Of a stretch of 64,000 nt of DNA, positions 1,269 to 39,761 are shown piece by piece. Position 1 is the stretch's first letter. Each line of letters opens with the position of its first letter. This DNA comes from Bacteroidales bacterium (GTDB taxonomy: Bacteria > Bacteroidota > Bacteroidia > Bacteroidales > UBA932), in assembly GCA_017469425.1 (NCBI GenBank), contig JAFUGJ010000015.1:1-64000 (forward strand), given 5' to 3'. A program made the translations under genes and the position numbers. Below the pieces are notes generated by a model, which saw nothing but the letters and a program-made list of their open reading frames with translations, was not told the origin of the DNA and ran no database searches.

Positions 1269-1294
1269 TTATGCTCAACAAAAACACTGAAACT

Positions 1295-2809: not shown

Positions 2810-2826
2810 ATCAAGAAAACATAAAA

Positions 2827-18536: not shown

Positions 18537-19820
18537 TTATGATTTAGTTTCAACGCTCCAACCCCATGGAGCGAGGGTGAGGCCGTTCACGAGCACTTCG
18601 GAGGCGGAGAGGTTTGCGTAAACCGTCACCTCATTTCCTTTCACCTTGCGGCTGAAGGCGAGCACATCGGGATTGCCGGTTTCAATCCAGACGAGTTTTC
18701 CTCCCTTTTCTCCCGCTGCAAGAGCAGGGTTGTTGTGCTTGAGTTCCACAAGATACTTGAAGAAATCGGTGTACTCGTTGTCGCTCCAGTCGGTGATGGG
18801 ATCTTTCTCAAAGAACTCCAGACGGCGGTCAAGGCCGATTTCCTGACCTGTGTAGATGAGGGGCTGGGTCTTTGGAAGGGTGAAGTTTAGCACCTCCATA
18901 ACCTTGGCCGCATCGCCGAGGCGCTCGAATTCGGTGCCGTTCCAGGAGTTTTCGTCATGATTGGAAGTGAAGGCGAGACGGAAAGCGGATTCGGGGGTAT
19001 TCACCGCATCCTTGGCAAGATACTCGCGGAGGGCATCGGCAGTCTTTACGCCGTCCTTATTGGCGGGGCCGTTGCCGATTGCGTTCTCAATGTGATGCAT
19101 CTCCCAGGCATAGGTGGCATCGAACATGGTATCCGCAGTAAATTCGGGCTTTTCCGCTTCAGCAAGAAGGTAGATTTCGGGATAAGCTCGGCGGAGGGCG
19201 GGCACAAGGTACTGCCAGGTTTCCGTAGGCATTTCTCCGGCGGCATCGCAGCGGAATCCGTCCACGCCCTTGTCGAGCCAGAAGCGCATGGCATCTTCCT
19301 GTGCATACCAGACCTCTTTGTTATCGTAATTAAGGCTGCGGGTATCGTTCCAGTCATACTCGTAGATTGCATTTCCAAGAGAATCGCGCTCGTAGAAATC
19401 GGCGGGCTTTTCACTCATCCATACATTGTCGGGCGAAGTCTGGTTGGCGACCCAGTCCATCACCACCTTGAATCCCGCTGCATGGGCGGCGGCAATAAGG
19501 TCCTCGAAATCCTGCATGGTGCCGAACTCATCATTCACGGCCTTGTAGTCGGAGATTGCATAGTAGCTTCCGAGGGTACCCTTGCGCTCTTCCACGCCAA
19601 TCTTGTTGACCGGCATGAACCAAAGGATATCCACTCCAAGGTCCTTCAGGCGGGGAAGATGGGCTTCGACGCCCTTGAAAGTGCCTTCGGGAGTAAACTG
19701 GCGGACATTCACTTCATACACCACGGTGTTATACATCCATTCAGGATGCACATTCTTTTTGGGAGCGCTGCAGGCTGCAAGCAGCAGGGCGAAAGTTGCA
19801 AATAAAACAGTCTTTTTCAT
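18537..19820 (-). CDS. GH13 alpha-amylase-family lipoprotein
   Basis: 427 residues. Lipobox LLLAAC, so lipid-anchored. The (beta/alpha)8 barrel shows YEVNVRQF, MDWVANQTS (region I), GFRCDAAGE (nucleophile Asp), LLAEAE (acid Glu) and FTSNHDEN (region IV Asp). Short for GH13, with a compact B domain and C-terminal beta domain. Probably an alpha-glucan or maltodextrin hydrolase; exact specificity is not visible. Last PUL gene, separated from the previous one by a palindromic repeat, and followed by a terminator. Confidence 0.85.
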   Translation of the reverse strand: MKKTVLFATFALLLAACSAPKKNVHPEWMYNTVVYEVNVRQFTPEGTFKGVEAHLPRLKDLGVDILWFMPVNKIGVEERKGTLGSYYAISDYKAVNDEFGTMQDFEDLIAAAHAAGFKVVMDWVANQTSPDNVWMSEKPADFYERDSLGNAIYEYDWNDTRSLNYDNKEVWYAQEDAMRFWLDKGVDGFRCDAAGEMPTETWQYLVPALRRAYPEIYLLAEAEKPEFTADTMFDATYAWEMHHIENAIGNGPANKDGVKTADALREYLAKDAVNTPESAFRLAFTSNHDENSWNGTEFERLGDAAKVMEVLNFTLPKTQPLIYTGQEIGLDRRLEFFEKDPITDWSDNEYTDFFKYLVELKHNNPALAAGEKGGKLVWIETGNPDVLAFSRKVKGNEVTVYANLSASEVLVNGLTLAPWGWSVETKS

Positions 19821-19856: not shown

Positions 19857-19932
19857 GAAAACAAATCGGCTATTTTTACCGATTTGTTTTCCGGCAACTT
19901 GTTGCTAATCAGAAGATTGAGTGCTGCAAGCA
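19857..19932 (+). repeat. Dispersed palindromic repeat, copy 2
   Basis: Perfect arms GAAAACAAATCGG (19857-19869) and CCGATTTGTTTTC (19879-19891) with a 9-base loop; the symmetry extends outward by CC/GG across one mismatch. Tail ends TAATCAGAAGATTGAGTGCTGCAAG. The tail overlaps the 3' end of the GH13 gene: its stop codon and last residues (ACSTQSSD) are encoded by the repeat. Confidence 0.85.
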
Positions 19933-24409: not shown

Positions 24410-25542
24410 TCCGCAAAAGGATCGAGGGCCGCAGTGGGTTTTCCTCCTGCAAATGCCCCATATTCGTAATTGTTGCGGCTCTTTTCGGATTCGGGTTCCC
24501 AATAGAACACTCCCCCGAACCAGTCGGAATCCTTCACCCCGTCGAGCACATACTGAAGTGCGGCCTTGGCTTTTTCGGGCTCGGAGGCGGGCATGCCGAA
24601 TTCCACCAGCATCACAGGTTTGCCGTAACGCTTGTTGAGCGTGGAGAAGTTGGAAACGCACTGCCTGGTCTTGGTGCTCCAGTCGGGATAGCCATTGTTC
24701 TCCCAGTAGGAAGGATAAAGTGAAAGGCCGATGATGTCGTACTCGAGCTTGTTTTCCTTCATGAGGTCGTAGAACCATGTGAGGGTGGCGAGTTTCCAGC
24801 CGTTATCTATGTGCAGAATCACCTTTGCATCGGGATACACTTCCTTCACAGCCTCGCGCCCTACATTGAAATACTCCACGAAATGCCCGACGCTGCTGCC
24901 GCTCACCTTGCCCGAAACTGCCGAAGAAATTTCCTTCACATTGCCTTCCGTGCCGGTGTGCATCAACATGCCGGGGGTGACTTCATTGCCTACCTGAACC
25001 CACTCCACATCAATCTTTTCATCCTTCAGGGCCTGAAGAACCTCTTTTGTATGTCCTGCCACCGCCTTTGCCATCTGCTCCGCGCCATATCCCTGCCATG
25101 CAAGCGGAACAATCTGCTTTGAAGGGTCGGCCCAGGTGTCGCTGTAGTGGAAATCTATCATTATTTTCATGCCGAGGTCACGGGCGCGCCTGCATTTGAC
25201 GAGCACATCCTCCTTGTTGTTGTATCCTGCGGAAGGATTCACCCACACGCGGTAGCGCACGGAATTGAAGCCTATGCTCTTCAGCAGGGCCGTACATTCC
25301 ATTTCTGAGCCGGAAGCATTGTAGAACTTGTATTTTTTCGCTTCCATCTCTGTAAGCCAGCCTATGTCGGCGCCCTTTGCAAAAAAGGCGGAGGCTGCGG
25401 GTTCGGGCTCAGGTTCAGGTTCAGGTTCGGGCACGACCGGAGTGTCCGGACCATCTATGGGAGTTTCGTTGTTTCCGCCTCCGGAGCATGAAGCGCAAAG
25501 GACGAAAGCGGATGATGCGAGTATCAGTAAAAGTTTTTTCAT
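24406..25542 (-). CDS. GH53 endo-beta-1,4-galactanase lipoprotein
   Basis: 378 residues. Lipobox VLCASC followed by an acidic/proline linker of alternating Pro-Glu (encoded by a hexanucleotide repeat at about 25402-25433), suggesting surface display on a flexible stalk. The GH53 barrel shows GADIGWLTEME, NSVRYRVWVNP, IDFHYSDTWADP, VQVGNEVTPGML (acid/base Glu) and MLVEFGMP (nucleophile Glu). Cuts beta-1,4-galactan such as pectic galactan or arabinogalactan I. Its place inside an otherwise alpha-glucan-type PUL is unusual. Confidence 0.92.
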   Translation of the reverse strand: MKKLLLILASSAFVLCASCSGGGNNETPIDGPDTPVVPEPEPEPEPEPAASAFFAKGADIGWLTEMEAKKYKFYNASGSEMECTALLKSIGFNSVRYRVWVNPSAGYNNKEDVLVKCRRARDLGMKIMIDFHYSDTWADPSKQIVPLAWQGYGAEQMAKAVAGHTKEVLQALKDEKIDVEWVQVGNEVTPGMLMHTGTEGNVKEISSAVSGKVSGSSVGHFVEYFNVGREAVKEVYPDAKVILHIDNGWKLATLTWFYDLMKENKLEYDIIGLSLYPSYWENNGYPDWSTKTRQCVSNFSTLNKRYGKPVMLVEFGMPASEPEKAKAALQYVLDGVKDSDWFGGVFYWEPESEKSRNNYEYGAFAGGKPTAALDPFAE

Positions 25543-25555
25543 ACCATCAAGATTA

Positions 25556-27901
25556 TCATTCGGAAATCACGAAAACCGCAGTGCTGTAAGCGCCCATGCT
25601 GAGGGTGCTGTCGGTGAGCACTCCGGATGTGGTGGTGGTCTTCAATTCGGCGCTGCCGTTGAGCCCCACGACTTTGCTGAGGTCTTCGGCGCCGAAGGAA
25701 GCGGTAATCTTGGCACCGCCGAAATTGTGCACCACGAGGAGTTTTTCGCTGCCGGAAGTCATGTACCAGGCTCCGATGGCGGCAAAGCGGTTGTTGGTGC
25801 TGTTATATATGGGATGCTCGCTCATTTCACCTTCGGCAAGAGCGGGATAGGTATTGCGCAGTTTGGCAAAGCTTCGGTAAACATTCAGAAGAGAGCCTTC
25901 CGACGCCTCCTGAGCCTCAACAGAAATGTCGGCGCCAAGCATGTTGTTGTCAACTTTCCCGTTCAGGGCCGCAGTGGGAACGCTTCCGTTCCTGGTCCAT
26001 TTCATGGGAGCCCGCACATATTCGTCGCCCTGGTCCTTCACGCCCCAGTATCCGAGTTCTTCCCCTTGATAGATGAAGGGCTTGCCGGGAGATGTGAGAA
26101 GCACTGCGGCAGCAAGTTTTTCCTTCTCCAGCGAACGGCCAAGGTCGGAAGCGGCGCGCACCTCATCGTGATTGGAGAGTTTGATGGCATCGATAAAGTC
26201 ACTGCGGACGGAAGCATAAGCCTGACGGAATCCGAGCACGGTGGAAGCGAAATCGTTGCCCTTGTTCTTCCCTATCCTGTCCTTGAGGGTCCACCAGTAG
26301 TAGAAGTCGAAGCATGACGGAAGACCCGCATAGTAGGGTGCGGTCTGTGAAGCATTGTCCTTCCATGCCTCTCCCACCATGTAGATGTCGCCCTCGCCTC
26401 CGCGGGCTTTGTATGTAGCGTTGATGCGCTCATACCACTGCTTGAGGAAAGCCGCGTTTGCGGAAGCCTGGTCCTGGTAAATCCACACGACGGCATCGAG
26501 CCTGAACCCGTTCACGCCCATGTTCACCCATTTGTCGGCGGTGGAGGCAATGGCCTTGAAGGCTTCGGAGCTGCTTGCGCTTGCATAAGGGCCGTAGTTC
26601 AGGTCGGGCATGCTCTTGTCGAAGCTGGCGAAATACCAGCTCGAGTTGTTGCCGAAAACGATGTTGCCGGGGTCGCTGCCACTGTTGGACGCAAGCGTAA
26701 AAGGAGTTCCGAACACTATGGCCTTCGCCCCGGAAGGTGCGCCCCACTTGGTGCCCTGCCCCCAGTTGTCGCCGGAAGCGGTACGCACAAGGAAGCCCCA
26801 GTCGGTATCGACATCGATGGTTATTTCGAATATGTTCGAGGAAGTCTCATAAAGCCCGACGGCGCCGACTGAACCTATCCAGAGCCACTTGCTCGCAGAA
26901 GCATTGGAAGGCTGCGCCGCAGCGGTGGATGTGGTGACGGTAACCGTCTTGGCATCCCCGGTCCAGTCGAGAAGGAAGTGAAGACGCCCCTTGTAGCCAA
27001 CGCCAACTCCCACGGAATACCAGTCGCCCATCCCGGCGGAGGTGGCTCCGGCGAAATTATCCACTTTCCTGTTCTTGACATCATCCCCGGGATTGTCAGA
27101 GAAAACATAGTAATTCCTGTATGGACTGTCGGCATTGCCAAGCGCATCCTGGAACCATTCTGTGCCGGTGCCGGAATGGTTGAGCACATAGTCCATGTAT
27201 ATATCCACCTTCTTTGCGGCAGCGCTGCCGATAAGGGAGCTGAAAGAAGCGTCGTCGCCATAATGCGCGTCGATTGTGCCGTAATCGTTGATGTCGTATC
27301 CGTGGTAGGAAGACGCCTTCTGCACAGGGGAAAGCCAGATTGCGGAAGCACCCAGACCGTCGATATAGTCAAGATGCTGTTCCACGCCCTTGAGGTCACC
27401 CCAGCCGTCACCGTCGCTGTCGGCAAACGAATAAGCAAGCAACTGATAGGTTATACCCGCACGCTTGACCCCGTCCCAGGTCTTCGGATTAGCAGAAAGA
27501 GTGGTGGTGGTGCTTTGTGTAGGGTTCTCCTCGCCTGCCGCCTGGCTTACGGTCACGCTGACATTTTTGCCCCCCCCGCCGCTGAAACTAATGCTTGTAC
27601 TCCGGGGCTGGACGGAGGTATTTTCGCTCACCGTCACATGTACCGTGGCATCGCCTTCACCGCTATAGGTATCCACCCTGCACCAGCTGCCGCCGTTGGC
27701 GACGGATACGCTCCATTTCCCGTTGCTGCTCACATCCACCGGCAGGGTCGCCTGCACGGGGCTCGTGAAGGAGAGTGTCGCGGGAGAAACCGAAAGGGTT
27801 ACGGCCTGCCCGTTTCCGCCGTTTTCGGAAGGGCCGCCGCACGACGCAGCTGCAACTGCGGCAAGCGCAATGCATATCCAAATGTATAAGAATCTTTTCA
27901 T
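25556..27901 (-). CDS. susG: SusG-type surface alpha-amylase with BACON domain
   Basis: 781 residues. Lipobox AAASC, a BACON domain (about 33-121), then GH13. Catalytic residues by motif: nucleophile Asp469 in GFRLDA, acid Glu511 in VGEAW, and Asp579 in LSNHDE. Residues about 285-418 interrupt the barrel between the B-domain and the DLNYGP strand; this is where SusG carries an inserted CBM58 starch-binding domain, and the length and WLWIGS/WGFLVRT pattern fit. Starch endo-cleavage at the cell surface is inferred. Has its own promoter, after a terminator. Confidence 0.9.
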   Translation of the reverse strand: MKRFLYIWICIALAAVAAASCGGPSENGGNGQAVTLSVSPATLSFTSPVQATLPVDVSSNGKWSVSVANGGSWCRVDTYSGEGDATVHVTVSENTSVQPRSTSISFSGGGGKNVSVTVSQAAGEENPTQSTTTTLSANPKTWDGVKRAGITYQLLAYSFADSDGDGWGDLKGVEQHLDYIDGLGASAIWLSPVQKASSYHGYDINDYGTIDAHYGDDASFSSLIGSAAAKKVDIYMDYVLNHSGTGTEWFQDALGNADSPYRNYYVFSDNPGDDVKNRKVDNFAGATSAGMGDWYSVGVGVGYKGRLHFLLDWTGDAKTVTVTTSTAAAQPSNASASKWLWIGSVGAVGLYETSSNIFEITIDVDTDWGFLVRTASGDNWGQGTKWGAPSGAKAIVFGTPFTLASNSGSDPGNIVFGNNSSWYFASFDKSMPDLNYGPYASASSSEAFKAIASTADKWVNMGVNGFRLDAVVWIYQDQASANAAFLKQWYERINATYKARGGEGDIYMVGEAWKDNASQTAPYYAGLPSCFDFYYWWTLKDRIGKNKGNDFASTVLGFRQAYASVRSDFIDAIKLSNHDEVRAASDLGRSLEKEKLAAAVLLTSPGKPFIYQGEELGYWGVKDQGDEYVRAPMKWTRNGSVPTAALNGKVDNNMLGADISVEAQEASEGSLLNVYRSFAKLRNTYPALAEGEMSEHPIYNSTNNRFAAIGAWYMTSGSEKLLVVHNFGGAKITASFGAEDLSKVVGLNGSAELKTTTTSGVLTDSTLSMGAYSTAVFVISE

Positions 27902-28005: not shown

Positions 28006-30576
28006 CTATTCGATAGTAAGCTTGGGAGTGGCACTTGCCATGTCGAGGACGATGGTATGCTCACCTGCCGCTGCGATGCTGATGTTTGCACCGTTCAGGG
28101 AAGTGAGTTCGTTGATGTCGCCTCCCATCGAGTAGTCCCAGTTTCCGTTGAAACGCACCTTGAATCCCTGGTCGGCGGCTGTCGTGGTAATCTTGCCGGA
28201 ATAGGTCAGGGTGGTGGCGTCGAAGCTCATCTCCACATCGTCGGCCCAGTCGTTGAAGTCGCCGATAAGGCCGACCTTGGTGATTTCCATGGCAGTTGCG
28301 GTATTCGCAACGAGGTCAACCTTCCAGAAGTAGGTGCCTGCGGAAGCAAGGGTAAGGTTTTCGCCGTCGCCGAGAGTCCAGTTGAGGCCATCGGCTGAAG
28401 TATTACCAATCCAGCTGCCATTGTGCACAAACTTGAACTCGATTCCGGTGCCGTACATGGTGAGAGGGCCCTGGAATTTGCCGTCGCCGCTGCCAAGGAG
28501 GGCGGGATCATCGGTGGCACTCCAGCTATGTCCGGAATAATTGCCGGCAACCACGAGCTTCGTGGAATATGCAGGGCCGTCGAGTTCTGCGGTCTTGGTA
28601 AGCACTGCATGGTAAGGAGTGGTGGCAAGGAAGAGCTCGATGGTATAAACTCCGGGCTCGGTGTCGGTGATGTTGCCGCCGTCCTGCACGAGGTTATCGA
28701 CAGCGCCGCCGACATTGATTTCCCAGTCACGGTTCATACGGAACTTCCACTGTCCACCGGCAGGGATGGTTGCGCCTGTAAGCTTCCAGCTGTCGGAGCC
28801 GGCGTCGTAGCTCATAAGGTAATCCTCGCTGGTGCCCCAGTCGGTGAACGAACCGACAACTTCCACATCGGTAATCAGGGTGGCACCGGCCTTCATCTCG
28901 GACAGGTCGAGGGTGAGCTTGTAGTAACCCTTGTCGAGGCTGAGGTTGCCGCCGCCGGAGCTTACCAGGTTGTCCATGGAGCCTGCATATTCGGCGGACC
29001 AGTCGAGATTGGGGGTGAATTTGAATTCGCCGTCCATCGCGACAAAGCCCTCATAGTGGCCTTCGCCGTCGCCATTGAGCCTGGGAGCCGAAGCGGGATC
29101 CCAGCCCTGATGATTGCCGGTAACGCCCACGGATTCGGGATAGCTGGTGTTGATGAACTTCACGGCATAAGGATGCCTGCTCATGTCGAGGGTAACCTTG
29201 TAATTGCCTTCCGAGGATGCCTTGAGGTTGGCACCGCCGCCATTCACGCCGTAAGTGTCGTCGATGGAGTAATCCCAGTCATCGTTGAGGCGGAACTTGT
29301 ACTCGTCGGCCACGAAATTGGTGGTAACGGTGAATACATTGGTTTCCTTGTTCCATTCCATGGGAATCTCGGCATCCCATCCGCCTACCGCAGTACCGAT
29401 GATGCCAACGCTGCTGAGGCTCACCATCTGGATGGTGTTGAGCTTCTTGTTGAGCATGACCACATATACGCCTGAAGGAACCTTGATGTTGTCGCTGACG
29501 CCGATGGTACCGTTTGCGGACACATATACGCCGTCCTTTCCGCCGACTTCGACTTTCCCGCCGAAATCGTCCTTCCACTCGGGATAGGGAGAGAACTTGA
29601 ACTCGGCATCGTTTCCGTCCTCGGTGGTGAGGTCGATGATGCCCTCATAGTATCCCTTGACGGAAGAAGACTGGGCGAGGGTTGCCGAACTTGCGGGATC
29701 CCAGCCCTGGTGGCTTCCGGGAGTATAGAGAACTTCGGGGAAAGTAGCCAGATAAGTGGTGACCGTCATCTTTGCGGATGCGGCTTCCACACCTCCGGGA
29801 AGGCTTTCGCAGACGGCTTCAACGATGAAGGTGACATCCACATCGGCAGCTTCCTCTCCGCCTGCGGCTACAACGGCCTCGTTGAGGGCGTCAACCGTGG
29901 TGGAATAAGAAGTTCCGGCAATGCCTTCGGCCAGCAGGTACGCGCCTGCATCGACGGCCTTGCGGCCTACTGCGGAAAGAGCGGGAGCGGCTTCGGCAAC
30001 TTTCAGATACACATTGTAACTTACGGTCTCGCCATAGACGAGCCTTGCGGGTTCCCAGGTGATGAGTTCGATTTCCCCGAGAGGGTCGGAAGGATCGAGT
30101 TCCACCGCCTCGCTCGCAAGAGTCACCACGGGAGCCACGCCGTCGCCGTAGGCATAAATGTTCACCGCTATGGTGTTGGATTCATACACTTCGCCTCCGT
30201 CGGCCACGCGTACATACATGTTCACCGAGAAGGTGTCGTTCTCGGGAATGTCGCTGAAACTCCCGAGCAGCAGGGTGCGGAAAGCGTCCTTGCCGGTCTT
30301 GTACCAGGTATCCTTGGTATTTGCCAGGGAAACGGAAGTTCCGCCGCGCTCCATGTAGAAGTCGTAGCTGAGTCCTTCGGGCAGGTTGCGGTATGCGCTC
30401 CATGAGAACACCACTTCCTCCCCGGTCGTGCCGGTGGTGAGGAGAATGTCGCTGTGGGCATAAAGTTCGGGGGCTACCGGTTCTGTCGTGAAGGTATCCT
30501 CGGATTCGATTTTCTGGCAGGCTGCAACGCCGAGGGCGAGAGCCGCGACACTAAAGAAATAAAATATCTTTTTCAT
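28006..30576 (-). CDS. SusF-like surface glycan-binding lipoprotein with six tandem modules
   Basis: 856 residues. Lipobox LGVAAC. Two N-terminal SusE-type Ig-like domains (about 35-145 and 146-280) are followed by six modules starting near 281, 388, 480, 570, 672 and 766. Each begins with a V-x-G-x-x-x-G-W/D-W strand (SHQGWDP, VGGWDAE, NHQGWDP, SFTDWG, NYSGHSW, DFNDWAD) and contains an FKF/FRM/FRL strand with tryptophan. Known SusE has two and SusF three starch-binding modules. Likely holds alpha-glucan at the cell surface; binding by each module is inferred. Confidence 0.85.
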   Translation of the reverse strand: MKKIFYFFSVAALALGVAACQKIESEDTFTTEPVAPELYAHSDILLTTGTTGEEVVFSWSAYRNLPEGLSYDFYMERGGTSVSLANTKDTWYKTGKDAFRTLLLGSFSDIPENDTFSVNMYVRVADGGEVYESNTIAVNIYAYGDGVAPVVTLASEAVELDPSDPLGEIELITWEPARLVYGETVSYNVYLKVAEAAPALSAVGRKAVDAGAYLLAEGIAGTSYSTTVDALNEAVVAAGGEEAADVDVTFIVEAVCESLPGGVEAASAKMTVTTYLATFPEVLYTPGSHQGWDPASSATLAQSSSVKGYYEGIIDLTTEDGNDAEFKFSPYPEWKDDFGGKVEVGGKDGVYVSANGTIGVSDNIKVPSGVYVVMLNKKLNTIQMVSLSSVGIIGTAVGGWDAEIPMEWNKETNVFTVTTNFVADEYKFRLNDDWDYSIDDTYGVNGGGANLKASSEGNYKVTLDMSRHPYAVKFINTSYPESVGVTGNHQGWDPASAPRLNGDGEGHYEGFVAMDGEFKFTPNLDWSAEYAGSMDNLVSSGGGNLSLDKGYYKLTLDLSEMKAGATLITDVEVVGSFTDWGTSEDYLMSYDAGSDSWKLTGATIPAGGQWKFRMNRDWEINVGGAVDNLVQDGGNITDTEPGVYTIELFLATTPYHAVLTKTAELDGPAYSTKLVVAGNYSGHSWSATDDPALLGSGDGKFQGPLTMYGTGIEFKFVHNGSWIGNTSADGLNWTLGDGENLTLASAGTYFWKVDLVANTATAMEITKVGLIGDFNDWADDVEMSFDATTLTYSGKITTTAADQGFKVRFNGNWDYSMGGDINELTSLNGANISIAAAGEHTIVLDMASATPKLTIE

Positions 30577-30588
30577 ATCGATGCCGGA

Positions 30589-31692
30589 TTATTGTTTTTC
30601 CATAACGATGACAAAAGGAGTCCTGTTGCCATGGATTTTCATCAGATAGGTGCCGTCGCCGGGAACCTTCATGTTGTCGCCGCCTTCCACGAGTTCGAAA
30701 CCGCCTTCAACATCGTCGCTCGCCTTGGTGGCGGAGCCGAGCTTGCGGTCCCACGCGTGGTTGAAGCGGATGAGGAACTCGGTTTCGCCGCCGGAGAAGG
30801 TGACGGGCCCTGCGGTCCATACATTCTCCACGCAGTCGTAAACGAGGTCGACATCGTTGGCCCAGCCTGCACTCTCGTCGAATGCTCCGATGAGGCTGAG
30901 GGCGTCGATACCCTCGGCGCTGATGGTCTTGGAGCCGAGATTCACGGTAAGGTGATAAATGTTCTGGGCGTCGGAGCCGAACTGGAAGTTCTCGTCGCCG
31001 TTCTCGGGAACGGACCATGAAGGGGTAAGTCCGCTGTATCCCCAGTAATCACCGGCCCAGGCCCTCTGGGTTAGAATCTTGAAGCCCTGGTCCTCGCCGG
31101 GAACGATGGTGCCGCCTGCAAGGTAGTCGATAAGAATCTTGTAGACATTGGTGCCGCCGCCGGTCTCCCAGAATTCGGGAGCGTTGGCAACATCCCATCC
31201 ATTCTGGAACTGTCCGCAGATGAACAGGCTCCTGAGGCTGGCCTTGAAGGTCTGCACATTGAAAGCCACGGTGTTGGAAGACCTGAGGGGTTCCACTGCG
31301 GTGTCGGCGATTCCGGCCTCCACATAGGCGGTAATGTCGGCTGCGTCATTGGCCTTGACGCCAAGGGAGTTGACCAGCAGGCCGTTGATGTCGGCCTTGG
31401 TCATGGTAAGCGAATTGCTGAAGGAATTTCCTGCCAGGGCAGTCTTGTCGTCCTTTTGGAAGTAGAGGCTGTACTGAATCTGGGTGGGAGTTCCGAACGA
31501 AGCCTCGCTCCACACGAAGGTAACATCCTCGGTGCTGTTGGTGTTGTCGACTATGACATCGGCCACATCCACGAGCACGGGGGCGGTGTACGACGATGCG
31601 GGCGCAACCTGAACCTTGTCGATATCAATCTCGCAGGCGCAGAAGCAAAGCATCGCAGCAAACATTGCCAGATTTGCTATATACTTTTTCAT
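30589..31692 (-). CDS. SusE-like surface glycan-binding lipoprotein
   Basis: 367 residues. Lipobox CFCAC; an N-terminal SusE domain with VTFVWSEASFG, then two starch-binding-type modules (starting near FICGQFQNGWD and LIGAFDESAGW). Domain layout equals SusE of the sus system. Lies 12 bp after susD and 12 bp before the SusF-like gene. Non-catalytic capture of glycan is inferred. Confidence 0.85.
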   Translation of the reverse strand: MKKYIANLAMFAAMLCFCACEIDIDKVQVAPASSYTAPVLVDVADVIVDNTNSTEDVTFVWSEASFGTPTQIQYSLYFQKDDKTALAGNSFSNSLTMTKADINGLLVNSLGVKANDAADITAYVEAGIADTAVEPLRSSNTVAFNVQTFKASLRSLFICGQFQNGWDVANAPEFWETGGGTNVYKILIDYLAGGTIVPGEDQGFKILTQRAWAGDYWGYSGLTPSWSVPENGDENFQFGSDAQNIYHLTVNLGSKTISAEGIDALSLIGAFDESAGWANDVDLVYDCVENVWTAGPVTFSGGETEFLIRFNHAWDRKLGSATKASDDVEGGFELVEGGDNMKVPGDGTYLMKIHGNRTPFVIVMEKQ

Positions 31693-31704
31693 ATCTATTC
31701 AATA

Positions 31705-33357
31705 TTAATATCCGGGATTCTGGGTCAGATTGTCGTTTGCATTGAGATCCGACTCGATGATGGGGAAGATGTTGCGGCTCTCGGGAAGAGAAACGCGGCC
31801 ATCAAGCACACCACCCTTGTAAGGCCAGGGGAATGAAGCGGAAGTGAAGTAGCCGTAACGGACAAGGTCTGTGCGGCGGTGTCCTTCGAGCATGAGCTCG
31901 CGGGCACGCTCGTCGAGCAGCCAGTCGAGGGTGAGGGCATCGTCGGCGGGCATCGCAACGCCTGCACGGTCACGCAGGGCCTTGATGTAATTCTTGGCAT
32001 CGGTCGAAGAAACCACACCGCCGTTCAGACGGGCGTCGGCCTCGGCATAGATGAGATACATTTCGGCGAGACGGATCATGGGGAAGTCCATCGAAGAGAA
32101 GGACTGGTCGTTGAGGGTGCCGTCGGAATAGCGTCCGCTGAACTTCCAGCAGCGCCAGCCGGTTTCGGTCTTGGCATTGTCGAAGTCCTTTTCTCCCTGA
32201 TTGTAGAAGAAGGCACGCTTGTCAGATGCCGCACGGTCATAGCCGAGGCTTCCGGAAGGGTCGTCCCACTTCACATTGCTCAGGGCAAAACGCTCAACAT
32301 ACTCGTTGGGAACATGGTAGCCGTTCCACTCTTCGGGAACGATGGCTCCGCTGAGTCCGAGGACAGTAGCCACGGTGCTCCGCGAAGAATCGAAGAATGC
32401 CGAACCGAGGGTGGTGGTGCCGCCCCAGCTCTGTGCGTGATCCTTGTCATACTCGATTGCGAAGATGAATTCATCGGCGGCAGCACCGTTCTCGGTGTTG
32501 TCCTGCATGAACATCTCTTCATATACGGGGTGAAGCACATAGCCCATGCCTATTGTGGTCTGCGCCATGTCCTTTGCCTTCTGCCACTGTGCGGTGCCTG
32601 TGTAAACCTCGGCATTGAGGTAGAGGCGGGCAAGGAGGCCTGCCACCGAGCCCTTGGTAGGACGGGGATAAGCGACGGCTCCCTTTGCAGGCATGTCGCT
32701 GCTGTCGGAGAGGAGGTCCAGGAGTTCAGTCTCAAGCCAGTTGTAGAGATCGGCCCTGCTGATTTGTCCGGGCATGTCGCCGCCGATGTTCTCGGGCATG
32801 GGGAAAGGAGGATTTCCGAAAAGGTCGAGGAGGGTCCAGAAGAATATGGCCCTGTGGAAGCGTGCTTCGGCACGGTACTGATGCACGGTGTTCTTGATGG
32901 AGCCGTGTCCGCGTGCATCCAGCTTGCCGTCCTCGGTCTGGAGAAGGAATTCGTTTGCCAGGGCGATGCCTTTGAGGCAGCGGGTGTAGGCAATGTTGAT
33001 TCCGGTATTGGAAGTATTCCACTTGTTGTAGCAGAGGTCGGGAACATAGGAGTCGCCCGTCCATGTGCACTTGAAGGAGTCGGTAGTCATCTCCTGCAGG
33101 TTGATAAACTGGCGCAGGAGCTCACTCTGACCGGCATCGGGAGCAACGATATCGGCGCTGCCCGGATCGGTCTGGCTCACGAATGACCAATATGCGTTTA
33201 CATAGGCAAGACCCATGAGATAACTGTCCTCGTTCTCATAAGCGGTCTCGGAAGTATTATCGGTCTCATTGAGCGGAAGGGTGTCGAGGTCGCCGAGGCA
33301 TGCGTTGCATACAAGTGCGATGGCGGCTGCGGAGAGTATTCTGAATATATTTTTCAT
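31705..33357 (-). CDS. susD: SusD-family outer-membrane glycan-binding lipoprotein
   Basis: 550 residues. Lipobox CNAC, then a tetratricopeptide-rich SusD/RagB fold (YNKWNTSNTGINIAYTRC, AEARFHRAIFFW, FPMIRLAEMYLIYAEADAR). Forms the lid of the SusC transporter. Start taken at the ATG at 33357 (MKNIFRILS) rather than the TTG four codons upstream. Lies 12 bp after susC. The SusE/F and amylase neighbours point to alpha-glucan, but the ligand is not readable from the sequence. Confidence 0.92.
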   Translation of the reverse strand: MKNIFRILSAAAIALVCNACLGDLDTLPLNETDNTSETAYENEDSYLMGLAYVNAYWSFVSQTDPGSADIVAPDAGQSELLRQFINLQEMTTDSFKCTWTGDSYVPDLCYNKWNTSNTGINIAYTRCLKGIALANEFLLQTEDGKLDARGHGSIKNTVHQYRAEARFHRAIFFWTLLDLFGNPPFPMPENIGGDMPGQISRADLYNWLETELLDLLSDSSDMPAKGAVAYPRPTKGSVAGLLARLYLNAEVYTGTAQWQKAKDMAQTTIGMGYVLHPVYEEMFMQDNTENGAAADEFIFAIEYDKDHAQSWGGTTTLGSAFFDSSRSTVATVLGLSGAIVPEEWNGYHVPNEYVERFALSNVKWDDPSGSLGYDRAASDKRAFFYNQGEKDFDNAKTETGWRCWKFSGRYSDGTLNDQSFSSMDFPMIRLAEMYLIYAEADARLNGGVVSSTDAKNYIKALRDRAGVAMPADDALTLDWLLDERARELMLEGHRRTDLVRYGYFTSASFPWPYKGGVLDGRVSLPESRNIFPIIESDLNANDNLTQNPGY

Positions 33358-33369
33358 AATCCGTCTCAA

Positions 33370-36342
33370 TTAGAAGTTAAGGCTAACGCGAAGAGTGTAC
33401 AGTCTCGGACGGGGAACGATGTTGTTGTCCACGCCGTTGCTGATATTGTCTGTAGTGTAGAGTTCAGGGTCGAGTCCGCCGTATTTGGTGAAGATGCAGA
33501 CATTCTGCACGGACGCCGCCACGCGCAGCGACTCGATGCCTTTCAGCTTGAAGGTGTACCCGAGGTTGATGTCATCAATCTTGAAGAAGGATGCATCCTC
33601 TATCCACATGTCGGAATAGTTCTGGTAATCCGCCATGGGGAGGGTCCAGTTACGGATAAGGTAGTTGTTGCTGAGGTTGTTGATGTAACCCTTTGTGTAG
33701 TCGTCGCTGAACGAAGAGGAGTATCCCCTGCGCACGGAGTTGATCGCATAGTTGCCGATGGAGCCGTGGCCGTTGACGCTGAAATCCCAGTTCTTCCAGG
33801 TGAGCCTGGTGTTGAGGCCGAAGTACATCCAGGGAGTAGGGCTGTAGCCGGTGACATAGCGGTCGGCCTGGGTAATCTGGCCGTCGCCGTTGCGGTCCAC
33901 GAAAGCGTTCTCGATGGCCTTTCCGTCGGCATCATACAGCTGCTGGAACATGTAGAACACATTGGGAGCCTGGCCTATGCGGTGCAGGGCGGAATAACCG
34001 TCGGTACCGGAGAGGTTGGGTCCTGTCTCCACGCCCTTGTAGCCGGGAGTGTCGCGCAGCGTGAGCTTGGTGATTTCGGTGTTCTGGAAGGTGACATTGC
34101 CTCCTATGCTCCAGTGCCATTCGTCGGTCTCTACGGGAATCACATTGAGAGTGAGCTCGATACCCTTGTTGACGAGGGAGCCGATGTTCTGGGTGAGATA
34201 GTTGGTGAAGTTGCCGCCGAGGGGAACGCTTACGCTGTTGAGCAGGTCGGTGGTCTCGCGGTAGTATCCTTCCACGGTACCCGTGATGCGGTCGGAAGCG
34301 AATCCGAAGTCAAGACCCGCATTGTAGGTAGTAGTGGTTTCCCACTTGATGTTGGGGTTGTAGCCCTGGGGTGCAAGGGCATTCACATTCACACCGCCCA
34401 TGTTGTACCTCATGCGGGAGTCGGTGGCGCCGTAGTAACGGGCGAGATACTGGTAGTAGTCGTCGCCGATGTCCTGCTGGCCGGTCTTGCCCCAGCCGAG
34501 ACGGAACTTGAGTGCGGAAACCGCCCTGTTGTCAACGAGGAAATTCTCGTTCTTCATGTTCCATGCGAAGGCTGCCGAAGGGAAGAGGCCCCAGCGGTTG
34601 TCGGAAGAGAAACGCGAGGTGGCGTCGTCGCGGAGGGTGAAGGTGAACAGGTACTTGGATTTCCACGACCAGTTAAGCCTTCCGAAGAAGGAGATGAGGT
34701 AGTATTCCCTCGCTGAATCGGGATGGTCCTGGAAGACATTGGCGAAAGTGCCGTCGTTGTAGTAGTCGGTACCTTCCCAGCGGTAGTAGTTGTGCTGCCA
34801 GGAATAACCGGCCATCACATCGAGGTTGGAATGCTCGAAAGAGTGGTTGTAGTCGGCATAGAACTCGAGCAGGGTGTTGCGGTTGAAGTTCCGGCTCTTG
34901 GAAGCATAGTCACCGCCCTGGATGGCGGCCTTTCCTGCAAGATAGGAGCCGGGAAGCCTGTTGTAACTGTTGTGGTTGTCCGAGATGTCGTAACCGAGAT
35001 TGAGGTTGAAGCGCAGGTCTTCCAGTCCGTGAAGCTTGTAGTCGACCTGGGCGTTGCCAATTGAACGGCGGAGGTTGCCGAAGTTGCTCACTTCATTGAG
35101 CAGGGAGAGGGGGTTCACCGAAGAAAGGGTGTTGGCGTCGCCGTTGGCATTGAACCAGTTCCAGTAAGAGCCGTCTGCATTGCGCACGGGCTTCGTGGGG
35201 TCGAAGGCGATGGCGTTGCCCACTGCTCCGGAGTCGCCATAGTTGATGTCGGAAATGATGCCCTTGAGGTTGACATTAAGGGAAAGGTGATCGTCGAAGA
35301 ACTTGGGCGCAAGGTTGATGTCCATGTTGCCCCTGGTGGCATCTCCCGCCTTGAGTGTTCCCCGGTCATAATTGTATCCGAAACTGAAGCGGTAAGGAAG
35401 ATTCTGTCCGCCGTTGATGCTGACATTGTGGTCGGTGGAAACGCCCAGACGGTATATCTCCTTCTGCCAGTCGGTGTTTTCCGTTCCGAGAAGGGCCGTC
35501 TTGTCGGGATAGGTGGCGGCGATGTAGGAGCGGAACTCGTCGCCGCTCATGGCATCCATGGTGCGGTAGTTCTGCTTCACGGAGAAGCTGCCATTGTAGC
35601 TGACCTTGGGTTCAGCGGTCTTGGAGCCTTTCTTGGTGGTGATGATGACCACGCCGTTGGATGCACGGGAACCGTAGATTGCGGTTGCGGAAGCATCCTT
35701 CAACACGGAAAAGCTCTCGATGTCGTTGGGGTTCACCGAAGCGAGAGGGTCGCCCATGAAGGCGCCGCCTTCCTTGGTAATCGGCACGCCGTCAATCACG
35801 ATGAGGGGGTCGTTGTTCGCGGTAAGCGAAGAACCGCCCCTGATACGGAAGGTCGATTTCGCGCCGGGTTCGCCGGAAGCGGGAATGATGTTCAGGCCGG
35901 ACACCTTGCCCACAAGGGCCTGCGCCGGGCTCGTGATGGCTCCGCGGTTGATGTCGTCAGCCTTGATGGATGCGATGGAGCCTGTCATGTCGGTCTTCTT
36001 TACCGTACCGTAACCGATGACAACTACATCATCGAGGAACTCGCTGTCCTCCGCGAGTGTCAGCGCGGCGGGAACTTCAGAAGCCTTGAAAGAAACTGTC
36101 GAATAGCCTATGCAACTGATTTCCACAACTGCGTCGGCCGAAGACACCTTGAGGGTATAATTGCCGTCGAAGTCGGTCACCGTGCCGTTCGTAGTGCCTT
36201 TTTCCACTATGGAGGCACCAATCACGGGTCCGATTGCGTCAACGACATTACCCTTAACCTCATATCCGCCCTGGGCGGACACATTTGCCCCCATCAGCGC
36301 CGAAGCGATGACGGTGGAGAGGAGAATAAGGATTCTTTTCAT
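33370..36342 (-). CDS. susC: SusC-family TonB-dependent glycan importer
   Basis: 990 residues. Signal peptide, carboxypeptidase-regulatory-like domain (YEVKGNVVDAIGPVIGASI), TonB-box region near DDVVVIGYGTVKK, a plug domain with PLIVIDGVPI, and a 22-strand barrel ending LRVSLNF. Imports oligosaccharides released at the surface, using TonB energy. Starts 39 bp after the MFS transporter gene, so all may share the promoter region at 37711-37859. Confidence 0.95.
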   Translation of the reverse strand: MKRILILLSTVIASALMGANVSAQGGYEVKGNVVDAIGPVIGASIVEKGTTNGTVTDFDGNYTLKVSSADAVVEISCIGYSTVSFKASEVPAALTLAEDSEFLDDVVVIGYGTVKKTDMTGSIASIKADDINRGAITSPAQALVGKVSGLNIIPASGEPGAKSTFRIRGGSSLTANNDPLIVIDGVPITKEGGAFMGDPLASVNPNDIESFSVLKDASATAIYGSRASNGVVIITTKKGSKTAEPKVSYNGSFSVKQNYRTMDAMSGDEFRSYIAATYPDKTALLGTENTDWQKEIYRLGVSTDHNVSINGGQNLPYRFSFGYNYDRGTLKAGDATRGNMDINLAPKFFDDHLSLNVNLKGIISDINYGDSGAVGNAIAFDPTKPVRNADGSYWNWFNANGDANTLSSVNPLSLLNEVSNFGNLRRSIGNAQVDYKLHGLEDLRFNLNLGYDISDNHNSYNRLPGSYLAGKAAIQGGDYASKSRNFNRNTLLEFYADYNHSFEHSNLDVMAGYSWQHNYYRWEGTDYYNDGTFANVFQDHPDSAREYYLISFFGRLNWSWKSKYLFTFTLRDDATSRFSSDNRWGLFPSAAFAWNMKNENFLVDNRAVSALKFRLGWGKTGQQDIGDDYYQYLARYYGATDSRMRYNMGGVNVNALAPQGYNPNIKWETTTTYNAGLDFGFASDRITGTVEGYYRETTDLLNSVSVPLGGNFTNYLTQNIGSLVNKGIELTLNVIPVETDEWHWSIGGNVTFQNTEITKLTLRDTPGYKGVETGPNLSGTDGYSALHRIGQAPNVFYMFQQLYDADGKAIENAFVDRNGDGQITQADRYVTGYSPTPWMYFGLNTRLTWKNWDFSVNGHGSIGNYAINSVRRGYSSSFSDDYTKGYINNLSNNYLIRNWTLPMADYQNYSDMWIEDASFFKIDDINLGYTFKLKGIESLRVAASVQNVCIFTKYGGLDPELYTTDNISNGVDNNIVPRPRLYTLRVSLNF

Positions 36343-36381: not shown

Positions 36382-37710
36382 TTATTGCTTTTTTCCTATG
36401 AACCTCACGCACAGGGCCCCTGCCGCCAGCAGGCATCCTGCCAGCACCAGCATGGCCGGCTGGGAATTCCCCACGAGCCGCATGACCAGTCCGCCGGTCG
36501 CGGCTGCCACTATCTGCGGCAGGCAGATGGTGCAGTTGAACAGCCCCAGGTAGCTACCCATGTAGGGATTGCCTTCGAGAGCGTTGGTGAGGAGGGTGAA
36601 AGGAAGCGCCAGCATCGCGGCCCATGCCGCTCCGATGAGCAGGTAGCTGCCGCAGATGAGGAACTTGTCGTGGATGAAGAAGATGGATGCAAAGCCCGCC
36701 GCACCGAGCAGGAGGCTCAGCACATAGGCGCTTTTCACATTGCGGAAGCGGGGCAGCACTGAAGCCCAGATGATGGACCCCACTGCCTGCACGGCAAAAA
36801 CGACTCCTACCCAGTTGCCCGCATCCTGATATGCCTTGGAAGCGGTATCGGCGGCCTTGTTCCAGCAGTTGTAGGCGATTGCGCCGTTCGAATATGTCCA
36901 CATATAGAGAAATGCCGCCCAGCAGAAGAACTGCACCAGGCCGACTGTCCAGAAGGTGCGGGGAGCCTTGAACAGGAGCGCGACAAGGCCGTCGCCCTTT
37001 CCTTCCGGCTCATCCTTGATGCCATGGAACTCTTTGTATTCTGCAGGAGGCATCTCTTTCACCTTCACGAAAGTATAGAGTACGCAGACTATCAGGATGG
37101 CTGCTCCCACATAGAAAGAAGTGATTACGCTCGGGGGAACCTGCCCCTCGGGAGCCTCGTTCGCGATTCCTATCCAGGTGAAGAATATGGGGAAGAGGTA
37201 TCCGAACAGGCTTCCGGCATTGCAGAGGAAACTCTGGATCGAGTAAGCCTGCGTCTTCTGCTGCTCGCTCACCATGTCGCCCACCATCATCTTGAAGGGC
37301 TGCATGGCCACATTGATGCTGGTGTCGAGGAAAATGAGGCTGAAAAGCCCGAACCACATGGCGGCATTGAGCCCGAGGAAAATCCACGCCGTGGAAAGAT
37401 TCAGGCTGCCCGCGTTGGGGAGCAGCAACATCACGAGCACGGCCACGATGGCACCTACCAGAAGATAGGGCTTGCGGCGGCCCAGCCTGCACCATGTGCG
37501 GTCGGAATACTTTCCGATGAGGGGCTGCACTATCATTCCCATGAGAGGGGGCAGTATCCAGAAAAAGCTGAGCTGGTGGGGGTCGGCCCCGAGGGTGGCG
37601 AAGATACGGCTTATGTTGGCGCTTTGCAGGGCATAGGCAATCTGCACCCCGAAGAATCCGAAGCTGAGGTTGACCATCTGCGCAAAGCTGAGCGTGCGTT
37701 TATTTTCCAT
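36382..37710 (-). CDS. MFS/GPH-type disaccharide or oligosaccharide:cation symporter
   Basis: 442 residues with 12 predicted helices. SDRTWCRLGRRKPYLL between helices 2 and 3 and the N-terminal FGFFGVQIAYALQSANISR are typical of the SLC45-like/maltose-sucrose symporters of Bacteroidetes. It would move the disaccharides made in the periplasm across the inner membrane. The longer open frame upstream crosses the regulatory region; the start at 37710 (MENKRTLS) was chosen. First gene of the PUL transcript. Substrate (maltose or galactooligosaccharide) unproven. Confidence 0.83.
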   Translation of the reverse strand: MENKRTLSFAQMVNLSFGFFGVQIAYALQSANISRIFATLGADPHQLSFFWILPPLMGMIVQPLIGKYSDRTWCRLGRRKPYLLVGAIVAVLVMLLLPNAGSLNLSTAWIFLGLNAAMWFGLFSLIFLDTSINVAMQPFKMMVGDMVSEQQKTQAYSIQSFLCNAGSLFGYLFPIFFTWIGIANEAPEGQVPPSVITSFYVGAAILIVCVLYTFVKVKEMPPAEYKEFHGIKDEPEGKGDGLVALLFKAPRTFWTVGLVQFFCWAAFLYMWTYSNGAIAYNCWNKAADTASKAYQDAGNWVGVVFAVQAVGSIIWASVLPRFRNVKSAYVLSLLLGAAGFASIFFIHDKFLICGSYLLIGAAWAAMLALPFTLLTNALEGNPYMGSYLGLFNCTICLPQIVAAATGGLVMRLVGNSQPAMLVLAGCLLAAGALCVRFIGKKQ

Positions 37711-37741
37711 CGCGAAACGGCGTTTTAGTGTTAAAAACGCA

Positions 37742-37749
37742 CGAAAATA
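37742..37749 (-). promoter_or_regulatory. Candidate -7 box for the PUL transcript
   Basis: TATTTTCG on the minus strand, one mismatch from TAnnTTTG, 31 nt upstream of the transporter ATG. The LytTR-type sites at 37783-37833 would sit about 45-95 bp upstream of the start site, a normal activator position. Confidence 0.4.
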
Positions 37750-37782
37750 GCTTAAATACCTTTTAAAATAAAGGCAATTCCG

Positions 37783-37833
37783 ATGAACGGTGAAAGCAGA
37801 AGGACAAACTACAAAATAAAATGGATGAACGGA
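37783..37833 (-). promoter_or_regulatory. Candidate LytTR-regulator binding sites, 21-bp spaced direct repeats
   Basis: On the minus strand ACCGTTCAT (37783-37791) and TCCGTTCAT (37825-37833) both fit the LytTR consensus [TA][AC][CA]GTTN[AG][TG]. A weaker match, GTAGTTTGT, lies exactly midway (37804-37812). The gaps are 12 bp each, the spacing known for LytTR direct repeats. They sit between the PUL and the divergent LytS/LytTR genes. Confidence 0.55.
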
Positions 37834-37859
37834 ATCGATTTTTTTGTATCTTGCATGCA

Positions 37860-39005
37860 ATGGAGAAGGTACGCACCGGCTGGCTGATACTCATTTTCGC
37901 ACTGCTGCATTTCGCTACGGCGGCTGTCTGCCGTATGCTGGACGCCGACGACACCATGCTGCTCACGCTTCTCACTATGACGCTCACCGTGCTCATCTGC
38001 CTGCGGGAACGCATCTCCCTCGAATTCATTGGCCTGAGCATCGTGCTGGTAAACATCATAGGCTACGCGGCAGGAACCGGATTCGCCGCACTCATGAAAC
38101 TTTTCATCTCAAACGGCATCCTGCGGCACGCCATATCCACTTTCCTCACCACTGAAATGCTGGGATGGATGATTTACGGCGCCACCAAAATATCGTTCGC
38201 AAAAAGCTCCCACGCCCGGCGCCAGCTCACCTCCGACTTCCAGGTACGGTGGATTATCTTCGCTGTCGGGCTCATCTATCTAATCCGCGTAATCATCAAT
38301 GTGTGGTCGGCTTCCGGCGGGCAGCTGAAAGAAACCGGAGGCGACATCGTGGGCAACTCCATTGCCCTGCTCATTTTCGTGGCGGACATCATCTTCATAA
38401 GCAACAGTACCCGAAAGGCGATGGAGGCGGAACGCGGCAAGGCCAACAAGGCCCGCTTCCAGTACATGAACCTCAAGCAGCAGGTGAACCCGCATTTCCT
38501 CTTCAACAGCCTCAATGTCCTGGACGCCCTCGTATGCGACGGCACGAAGGAAGAAGCCAGCACCTATATCCACAAGCTCGCCGGGCTGTACCGCTATATG
38601 CTGCGCAACGAAGGGGAGGAACTGGTAAGCCTCTCCGACGAACTCGAGTACGCCCGCATGTACCTTGCCCTTCTCCGGGTCCGTTTCCCCGAAGGAATAC
38701 GCATGGAAGAGGACATACGCCCCGAGGACCTTTCCCGCATGGTAGTTCCGTGCTCCGTGCAGCTGCTGTTGGAAAACGCCACCAAGCACAATGCCTTCTC
38801 GGCATCGGAGCCGCTTCTGATACGCATTTCTTCCGACAATAACACCTTACTGATAACCAACAACTTACGCCTGCGTCTTACGCCCTCTTCCTCAACCGGG
38901 CTGGGGCTTAAATACATACGCCAGCAGTATCTCGACCATTCAGGGGCCGAGGTGCTGGTGCAAAAAAGCGACGCAGAATTTTCCGTAAGCCTGCCACTAC
39001 TTTGA
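37860..39005 (+). CDS. LytS-type sensor histidine kinase
   Basis: 381 residues. About five or six hydrophobic segments in the first 190 residues form a membrane sensor without an obvious extracytoplasmic domain. The His_kinase domain (PF06580) has QQVNPHFLFNSLN with the phospho-accepting His, LLLENATKHNAFS as N-box and STGLGLKYIRQQY as G-box. The ATG at 37860 is 13 codons inside the open frame and follows a TATCTTGC box by 5 nt. Partner of the LytTR regulator three bases downstream. Confidence 0.9.
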   Translation: MEKVRTGWLILIFALLHFATAAVCRMLDADDTMLLTLLTMTLTVLICLRERISLEFIGLSIVLVNIIGYAAGTGFAALMKLFISNGILRHAISTFLTTEMLGWMIYGATKISFAKSSHARRQLTSDFQVRWIIFAVGLIYLIRVIINVWSASGGQLKETGGDIVGNSIALLIFVADIIFISNSTRKAMEAERGKANKARFQYMNLKQQVNPHFLFNSLNVLDALVCDGTKEEASTYIHKLAGLYRYMLRNEGEELVSLSDELEYARMYLALLRVRFPEGIRMEEDIRPEDLSRMVVPCSVQLLLENATKHNAFSASEPLLIRISSDNNTLLITNNLRLRLTPSSSTGLGLKYIRQQYLDHSGAEVLVQKSDAEFSVSLPLL

Positions 39006-39008
39006 TTT

Positions 39009-39761
39009 ATGAATGTTTTACTTGTTGAAGACGAGCCCATGGCCCTCCGGAGGCTTGAGCAGATACTTTCGGTCAACTTCCCGGAAGTCGAAATAATAGG
39101 CAGAACCGGTTCCGTGCGCGACACCGTGCAGTGGCTCCGCGAAAACGGCGCCCGCACCGATGTCATTTTCATGGATGTGGAACTATCCGACGGCAACTGC
39201 TTTGAAATCTTCAAGCAGACTGAGGTCAGTGCAAGGGTGATAATGACCACTGCCTACGACAATTACGCGGTACGGGCGTTCGAAGTGAATTCAATAGACT
39301 ATCTTCTGAAGCCCGTCGAGATACCCGCACTCCGCAGGGCGCTGGAACGCTGCAGGAATGCCCTGGGGGGAGCAAGCATAGAAAAACTCCTCTCCGCGCT
39401 CGGACAGCGGCCTCCTGTCGGCGGAACTTTCAAGGAGCGTTTTCTCGTCAAGGTAGGGGAAAGGATAGTTCCCGTCGCGGCGGACGACATAGCATGCTTC
39501 GTTTCGGAGAACAAAGGCACTTACCTCATCACCCTCGACGGCTCGAAATACATAATCAACCCCTCGCTGGACGAACTTGCTGAAGAACTGGACCCGCTCC
39601 GCTTCTTCCGCGTATCGCGCAGTGCGATAGTGGCAAAGAAAACCGTCCGCAGCGTCAACCGCCTGTCCGGAAGCAAGCTTTCGATAGTGTCGGTGCTCCC
39701 CGGCGAAATCGAGGTAAGCCGCGCCCGCGTAGAGGATTTTCTTAGCTGGCTGGAGAAATAA
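39009..39761 (+). CDS. LytTR-family response regulator
   Basis: 250 residues. Receiver domain with VEDE (Glu7-Glu9), phospho-acceptor Asp56 in FMDVELSDG, Thr in MTTAYD and Lys in YLLKPVE. C-terminal LytTR DNA-binding domain (about 140-250) with FLVKVGERIVPV and FFRVSRSAIV. Cotranscribed with the LytS kinase. Target genes are unproven, but consensus LytTR sites lie in the adjacent divergent PUL promoter region. Confidence 0.93.
   Translation: MNVLLVEDEPMALRRLEQILSVNFPEVEIIGRTGSVRDTVQWLRENGARTDVIFMDVELSDGNCFEIFKQTEVSARVIMTTAYDNYAVRAFEVNSIDYLLKPVEIPALRRALERCRNALGGASIEKLLSALGQRPPVGGTFKERFLVKVGERIVPVAADDIACFVSENKGTYLITLDGSKYIINPSLDELAEELDPLRFFRVSRSAIVAKKTVRSVNRLSGSKLSIVSVLPGEIEVSRARVEDFLSWLEK

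Follow-up and report, generated by a model that had tools for sequence, protein, structure and literature searches.

The window, the whole 64,000-nucleotide stretch analysed here (contig JAFUGJ010000015.1 of assembly GCA_017469425.1, from a Bacteroidales bacterium), carries a kinase gene and a regulator gene on the plus strand, which diverge from a run of glycan-utilization genes on the minus strand. The minus-strand genes were assigned by family search except where another basis is given.

18537..19820, minus strand, GH13 alpha-amylase family
19905..21911, minus strand, GH13, cyclomaltodextrinase type (SusA-like by name only)
21908..24778, minus strand, GH2
24406..25542, minus strand, GH53
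25556..27901, minus strand, SusG-like GH13 alpha-amylase with CBM58 and SusG C-terminal domain
28006..30576, minus strand, SusE/SusF-like surface protein with CBM48-type modules
30589..31692, minus strand, SusE-like protein
31705..33369, minus strand, SusD-like lipoprotein (NCBIfam SusD 322 bits, below the 725 cut-off)
33370..36342, minus strand, SusC/RagA TonB-linked receptor
36382..37710, minus strand, MFS symporter, first gene before SusC (best NCBIfam match GPH_sucrose, below cut-off)
37860..39005, plus strand, histidine kinase, 381 aa (PF06580)
39009..39761, plus strand, response regulator with receiver and LytTR DNA-binding domain (Response_reg and LytTR)

The N-terminus of the kinase is a membrane sensor with six hydrophobic segments, according to a simple hydropathy script, and is followed by the PF06580 domain, whose H-box NPHFLFNSLN contains His212. 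The regulator matches PF00072 and PF04397 above cut-off and adjoins the PF06580 kinase gene, as in LytTR-type two-component systems. These profiles bear out the kinase and LytTR regulator genes that the initial annotation had called on the plus strand. It had also labeled the pair LytS/LytTR, and of this label the PF06580 kinase and the receiver–LytTR regulator stand but the sensor does not: a search of the window kinase at E≤10 found no 5TMR-LYT sensor, only PF06580 and a chance match to NPCC (E 0.1). According to excerpts of PMC10653868, the 5TMR-LYT domain is present in all LytS-like kinases, and the name 'LytS' is therefore loose for this protein. Across 17 kinases, the sensor residues His17, Cys24, Asp31, Thr36, Cys47 and Asn65, among others, are invariant; the conserved His17, Cys24, Asp31, Cys47 and Asn65 (37860-38400) suggest an intramembrane ligand or metal site. 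Many kinases of the relatives L019-L035 are longer (~460-500 aa), with an insert between the sensor and the H-box, and on the tree the long form is interspersed with the short one.

Judged by their predicted products, the minus-strand genes are a starch Sus locus plus GH53 and GH2: the SusC and SusD pair is accompanied by SusE/F-like proteins, a SusG with CBM58 and a GH13 of the cyclomaltodextrinase type. The GH53 and GH2 genes lie within the starch polysaccharide utilization locus (PUL; 21908-25542), and the true start of GH2 is probably downstream of the one listed; its ORF overlaps GH53. The intergenic gaps are 0-39 bp from the MFS gene through the SusF-like gene, and 104 bp ahead of the SusG-like gene; because the gaps are small, the promoter upstream of the MFS gene probably drives the PUL. 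Elsewhere in the window, xylulokinase, xylose isomerase and sugar porter genes lie consecutively at 1271-5549 (by eye from translations), and the window has no Rfam match.

The initial annotation had proposed that this PUL is controlled by something other than SusR, an HTCS or a sigma/anti-sigma pair. The HTCS part of that proposal held genome-wide: the own genome (94% complete) has 0 matches to the HTCS sensor Reg_prop, and the PUL is not classed as HTCS-controlled (among control genomes, 1 of 14 matches, Bacteroides ihuae). The sigma/anti-sigma part held for the genes scanned beside the window PUL, none of which is of the ECF sigma or FecR kind.

Half-sites and candidate promoters in the intergenic region

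Between the kinase–LytTR pair and the starch PUL lie three half-sites and two candidate promoter elements.

37742..37749, minus strand, PUL -7 box TATTTTCG, 32 bp downstream of the end of half-site 1 (TTCATC)
37782..37790, plus strand, half-site 1, PUL-proximal, GATGAACGG (sequence and conservation in relatives)
37803..37811, plus strand, half-site 2, middle, degenerate, GACAAACTA (sequence)
37824..37832, plus strand, half-site 3, kinase-proximal, GATGAACGG (sequence and conservation in relatives)
37847..37854, plus strand, candidate kinase -7 box TATCTTGC (by eye; not a strict-pattern match)

The half-sites start at 37782, 37803 and 37824, in exact 21-bp steps. Two full consensus matches 42 bp apart on the minus strand, with a 7/9 match midway, had been reported initially, and we found them in place: ACCGTTCAT at 37783-37791, TCCGTTCAT at 37825-37833 and, between them, GTAGTTTGT at 37804-37812. 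Both the full and the 7/9 scores refer to the LytTR consensus quoted in the initial annotation. The register that conserves best is GAYGAAYNG on the plus strand, one base earlier than that of the initial annotation. In relatives with 42-bp pairs the middle position reads, for example, GATGAGTTG (L008) or GACGAGCGG (L035), and by its letters the window's middle half-site is a degenerate and weak (7/9) member.

Single consensus matches at ≤1 mismatch are not unusual in the window (22 vs 25.9 expected). When the 149-bp intergenic region was shuffled 20000 times by mononucleotide, however, two full matches spaced by 21±1 or 42±1 bp arose in 11 cases. Together with the conservation described below, the shuffles rule out a chance origin of the half-sites. 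The putative operator consists of direct repeats of ~9 bp with 10-13 bp spacers, and so has the LytTR-type layout as defined in excerpts of PMC11347149 and PMC4847170. YpdB binds direct repeats of GGCATTTCAT, and LytTR sites generally are 9-11 nt repeats with 11-13 nt spacers (PMC4847170, PMC10653868, in excerpts).

We then compared promoter positions, with TAnnTTYG as the strict -7 box pattern. A strict half-site was present in 71 of 74 regions, 53 of which also had a strict -7 box; removal of three duplicates left 51 boxes from 68 distinct regions. Measured from the nearest strict half-site, the 51 distances were 30-33 bp (26 boxes), 52-54 bp (6), 64-65 bp (11) and 74-75 bp (8), with a vector strength of 0.94 at a period of 10.67, the loci being related and not independent. 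L161 and L146, in which the site precedes the MFS gene without an adjacent kinase gene, have gaps of 32 and 33. The sites had been placed just upstream of the PUL -7 box, and this position is confirmed by the 32-bp gap in the window and by helically fixed distances in the relatives. That the half-sites precede the PUL -7 box at distances differing by helical turns suggests activation. On the kinase side, distances of 19 and 42 bp dominate; since these -7 boxes also cluster, an autoregulatory share is possible. The kinase ATG lies only ~5 nt past its candidate -7 box (37846-37862), as it does in L012, L013, L017 and L018 (by eye), and the kinase mRNA may for this reason be leaderless.

Distribution of the predicted operator and the regulator

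A search with the kinase had hits at E≤1e-20 in 64 of 101 genomes, a count that takes in generic kinase matches, and at 26 of the 29 best relatives' loci the MFS gene was divergent beside the kinase. Strict GAYGAA pairs at 21 or 42 bp were found in 22 of 27 intergenic regions (our own and 26 relatives), whereas 1000 dinucleotide shuffles gave a mean of 0.01 loci with such pairs; the remaining 5 regions have looser copies (by eye). The initial annotation had named lack of conservation in related loci as grounds for giving up the half-sites, and they passed this check. Over the 27 regions, GAYGAA occurred 64 times on the kinase strand vs 1 on the opposite strand, and the flanks vary while the 9-mers and their spacing persist. 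Of 300 genomes in the genus, 109 contain the exact double pattern; with the pattern reversed as a control, 26 matches were obtained in 23 genomes. Exact-pattern loci adjoined an MFS gene of this kind in 23 of the 30 cases examined (one, L060, is a 40% paralog).

We next asked whether the site goes with the regulator at the best 80 named MFS loci, which come mostly from uncultured Bacteroidales, many of them from ruminants. By profile, 44 of the 80 have an adjoining kinase or LytTR gene and 36 do not; the 44 comprise 35 kinases, 7 fusions (see below) and 2 loci in which only a LytTR ORF was called, one of which (L095) has a kinase by BLAST. Sites were scored with a two-half-site matrix trained on the 27 intergenic regions, on which the window scores 21.1. 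Scores above 9 were obtained at 42 of the 44 loci with such a neighbor vs 3 of the 36 without (41 of 44 at the strict threshold of 10, L115 scoring just under it), and the AUC was 0.946 on 77 loci (41 vs 36), three loci that share training sequence being left out. The three scoring loci without a neighbor (L117, L146 and L161) have a full-length regulator ortholog elsewhere in each genome (E 7.7e-64 to 2.1e-69, 41-51% identity); L117 lies where a contig stops, and its pair may just have been lost to that truncation. The other 33 loci reach a top score of 3.5, and a regulator ortholog was found in 0 of these 33 genomes (best E 4.6e-37; assembly completeness not given).

When the site was tabulated against the regulator, as neighbor or genome ortholog, the counts were 45/1/0/33 over 79 loci, with L115 counted as scoring. 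The sole discordant row, L164, has no site; its neighbors include a kinase and a receiver protein, with no LytTR. In 9 of 9 independent pairs, taken from starred branches of the MFS tree, the site follows the regulator; in a few of 200 random pairings, 8 pairs agreed and 1 did not differ. L159 was omitted from the pairs test (misplaced start) and is a real exception, with a kinase neighbor and no site. Across the genomes compared, the predicted operator goes with the regulator. Because 33 of the 80 MFS loci have neither regulator nor site, the PUL can run without the regulator, and the upstream genes at 10 of the 36 pair-less loci contained no known regulatory domain of a substitute.

Further copies of the operator were also sought. 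In the own genome, 32 places matched at ≤2 mismatches vs 23 for a control pattern, with 0 exact pairs, and only the window's two overlap into a triple; a large regulon was thus not seen in this genome. In the relatives, 20 stretches with extra exact-pattern places were examined. Copies lie ahead of pullulanase genes in or near starch PULs in L235, L237, L241 and L242, with a gap to the -7 box of 31 in L235, L237 and L242; in L241 the repeats are overlapped by a called ORF, and a strict -7 box is missing. A second locus with kinase and MFS, L243, has a -7 box gap of 32. The other 15 of the 20 places fall inside predicted ORFs (8) or are intergenic (7: L236, L245, L246, L247, L248, L250 and L253). 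Neighbors of the intergenic seven, of which only part were scanned, include a serpin, a TonB-type OMP, an ABC transporter and an esterase, without known link, and the places set aside may include more targets. In L250 the site pattern lies inside a palindromic GC-rich element, and L248 and L250 are near OMP_b-brl_3 genes; the GC-rich element at L248/L250 is perhaps a terminator that mimics the site. In another genome (G340), a copy of the kinase and regulator genes is directly divergent from SusC, with no MFS gene between (L233:4805-5470), and the L233 repeats sit 43 bp from the -7 box.

One-protein sensor–LytTR fusions

In some relatives a single protein of 256-378 aa, stop to stop, takes the place of the pair, and consists of the kinase sensor region followed by LytTR, with no kinase and no receiver. 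We counted 18 fusion ORFs among the loci examined, duplicates included, and at least 9 of the 300 genomes searched in the genus encode a match of full or almost full length within a single ORF. In eight fusion genomes (L221-L228) the MFS and SusC genes adjoin the fusion, and seven of the eight have strict pairs (L221 has none). All 7 fusions among the 80 loci have a site score above 18. The sensor residues that are invariant in the kinases are also invariant in the 10 fusions aligned; the fusions of group C (see below) lack the last membrane segments. No MHYT domain was detected in L074 and L080 (E≤0.001) or in L087, L100 and L148 (E≤10), and LytTR was present. The alignment of the L100 fusion to the window kinase ends at Asn210, immediately ahead of Pro211-His212, and the protein then resumes at residue 108 of the regulator, so that the phospho-acceptor, the kinase core and the receiver are all gone.

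Of 77 rows, 64 entered the tree; those removed were 5 long branches, 7 near-copies and 1 copy of the window. The fusions fell into three groups, each supported at 100/99 or better, with one origin in 0% of bootstraps, and the window pair is sister to fusion group B (100/99). The AU test rejected a single origin of all fusions (p 1.5e-6) and the joining of groups A and B (5e-4); A and C joined was not rejected (0.122) and B and C joined was borderline (0.0497). The fusions therefore represent independent collapses, two of them firm by the AU test and a third likely from the tree. Nesting and the kinase remnant in L100 indicate that the direction was from pair to fusion. At L124:9450-9803 we noticed a lone LytTR ORF (~113 codons), without sensor, kinase or receiver, past intact repeats beside the MFS gene.

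Proposed control of the starch operon

We propose, with a probability of roughly 0.8, that the divergent starch operon (MFS-susCDEF-susG-GH) is under the control of a membrane kinase and a LytTR regulator dedicated to it. That the pair acts on the sus-type PUL through 21-bp-phased half-sites was already suggested by the initial annotation, and conservation, co-occurrence and geometry, all comparative, now speak for it. The ligand of the membrane sensor would most likely be a product of starch breakdown or a linked transport state, and the kinase, whose domains and those of its partner are intact, would phosphorylate the regulator. Two or three regulator monomers would then bind the half-sites at 37782-37832 on one helix face, probably cooperatively. 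The PUL-proximal half-site stands just above the -33 region, and the bound regulator would most likely recruit RNA polymerase and turn the operon on; it may also act on its own promoter.

CoxC, a LytTR protein of the membrane, has three direct repeats as its binding site and acts as a repressor (PMC11347149), and the regulator might repress the PUL in the same way. However, the CoxC sites overlap -35, whereas in the window a distance of 32 bp separates the -7 box from the end of the nearest half-site, which lies above -33; excerpts of the same paper describe most LytTR regulators as activators with binding sites upstream of -35. The helical-turn steps in the distance to the -7 box also argue against repression, which we regard as unlikely, though worth keeping in view. 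The sites stand between both promoters, and the clustering at 19 and 42 bp on the kinase side would fit sites that only autoregulate the kinase and regulator genes and have no connection with the PUL. Yet L161 and L146 retain the site before MFS at the usual gap without an adjacent kinase, the 8-kb stretch round the trans kinase of G341 has no strict pair, and copies precede pullulanase genes, which makes autoregulation alone very improbable.

The identity of the binder can be questioned too: the own genome encodes five LytTR proteins, G340 and G341 have a site without an adjacent regulator, and another LytTR protein could be the main one to bind. We consider this scarcely probable, because in the fusion genomes LytTR is joined to the same sensor beside the operator, and genomes with weaker paralogs only have no site. 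Finally, every locus comes from related Bacteroidales, and the half-sites might reflect recent shared ancestry or promoter composition and be no LytTR operator. The 9 of 9 independent pairs in which presence follows the regulator, the flanks that differ while 9-mers and spacing stay, and the failure of shuffles to produce pairs leave hardly any room for this explanation.

The components of this system are already known, as the following comparisons with excerpts of published work indicate. YpdA/YpdB-yhjX and BtsS/BtsR-btsT of E. coli likewise combine a membrane kinase, a LytTR regulator, a transporter target and direct repeats; unlike them, the window has another half-site, two or three repeats, a starch PUL as predicted target and a kinase without detectable 5TMR-LYT sensor. 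CoxC (PMC11347149), an MHYT-LytTR protein with three direct repeats, resembles the fused relatives in joining a membrane sensor to LytTR, but here the sensor does not match MHYT, the operator position suggests activation, and the fusion derives, by tree and remnant, from a two-component pair. In Firmicutes, the Roseburia arabinoxylan PUL Ros-7 (PMC5320581) already lists a kinase and a LytTR response regulator in a glycan-use cluster with a GPH transporter; it differs in substrate and in its ABC/GPH transport without SusCD, and no operator or test is named in the excerpts. SusR of Bacteroides thetaiotaomicron is also a dedicated starch regulator (susA/susBCDEFG), and SusR-like operators are direct repeats, but it is a one-protein membrane regulator with a DNA-binding domain unlike others (PMC3878776), whereas the window has LytTR and a kinase. 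HTCS similarly control Bacteroidota PULs through sensor and kinase, with an AraC-type output and a large periplasmic sensor (PMC3878776), and the own genome is without a Reg_prop match. In its excerpts, that paper gives SusR, HTCS and ECF pairs as PUL regulators, and the string 'lytt' does not occur in its text. Among the matches listed in a search of the open-licence literature, there was no LytTR regulator of a Bacteroidota PUL and no such pair-to-fusion conversion. What appears new against the literature searched is a LytTR protein with a predicted operator on a Bacteroidota starch PUL, and a kinase and receiver that were lost more than once.

SusR is the model for starch use in Bacteroidota, and the window locus appears to represent another kind of control module, from a lineage of uncultured gut bacteria, whose predicted operator is defined sharply enough for target genes to be predicted from it. 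We lean towards the broader view that LytTR is a further class of PUL regulation in Bacteroidota, alongside SusR, HTCS and ECF pairs, that has repeatedly collapsed to one-component form, with sensor, LytTR and 21-bp operator retained. If this is true, the sensor controls DNA binding without a kinase relay in the collapsed forms, and the window pair is the nearest intact relative of one collapse. Kinase with regulator, fused sensor-LytTR and lone LytTR (L124) form a natural series on one kind of operator and operon, which makes testable whether a two-component system can convert to a one-component system, and what the phosphorelay contributes.
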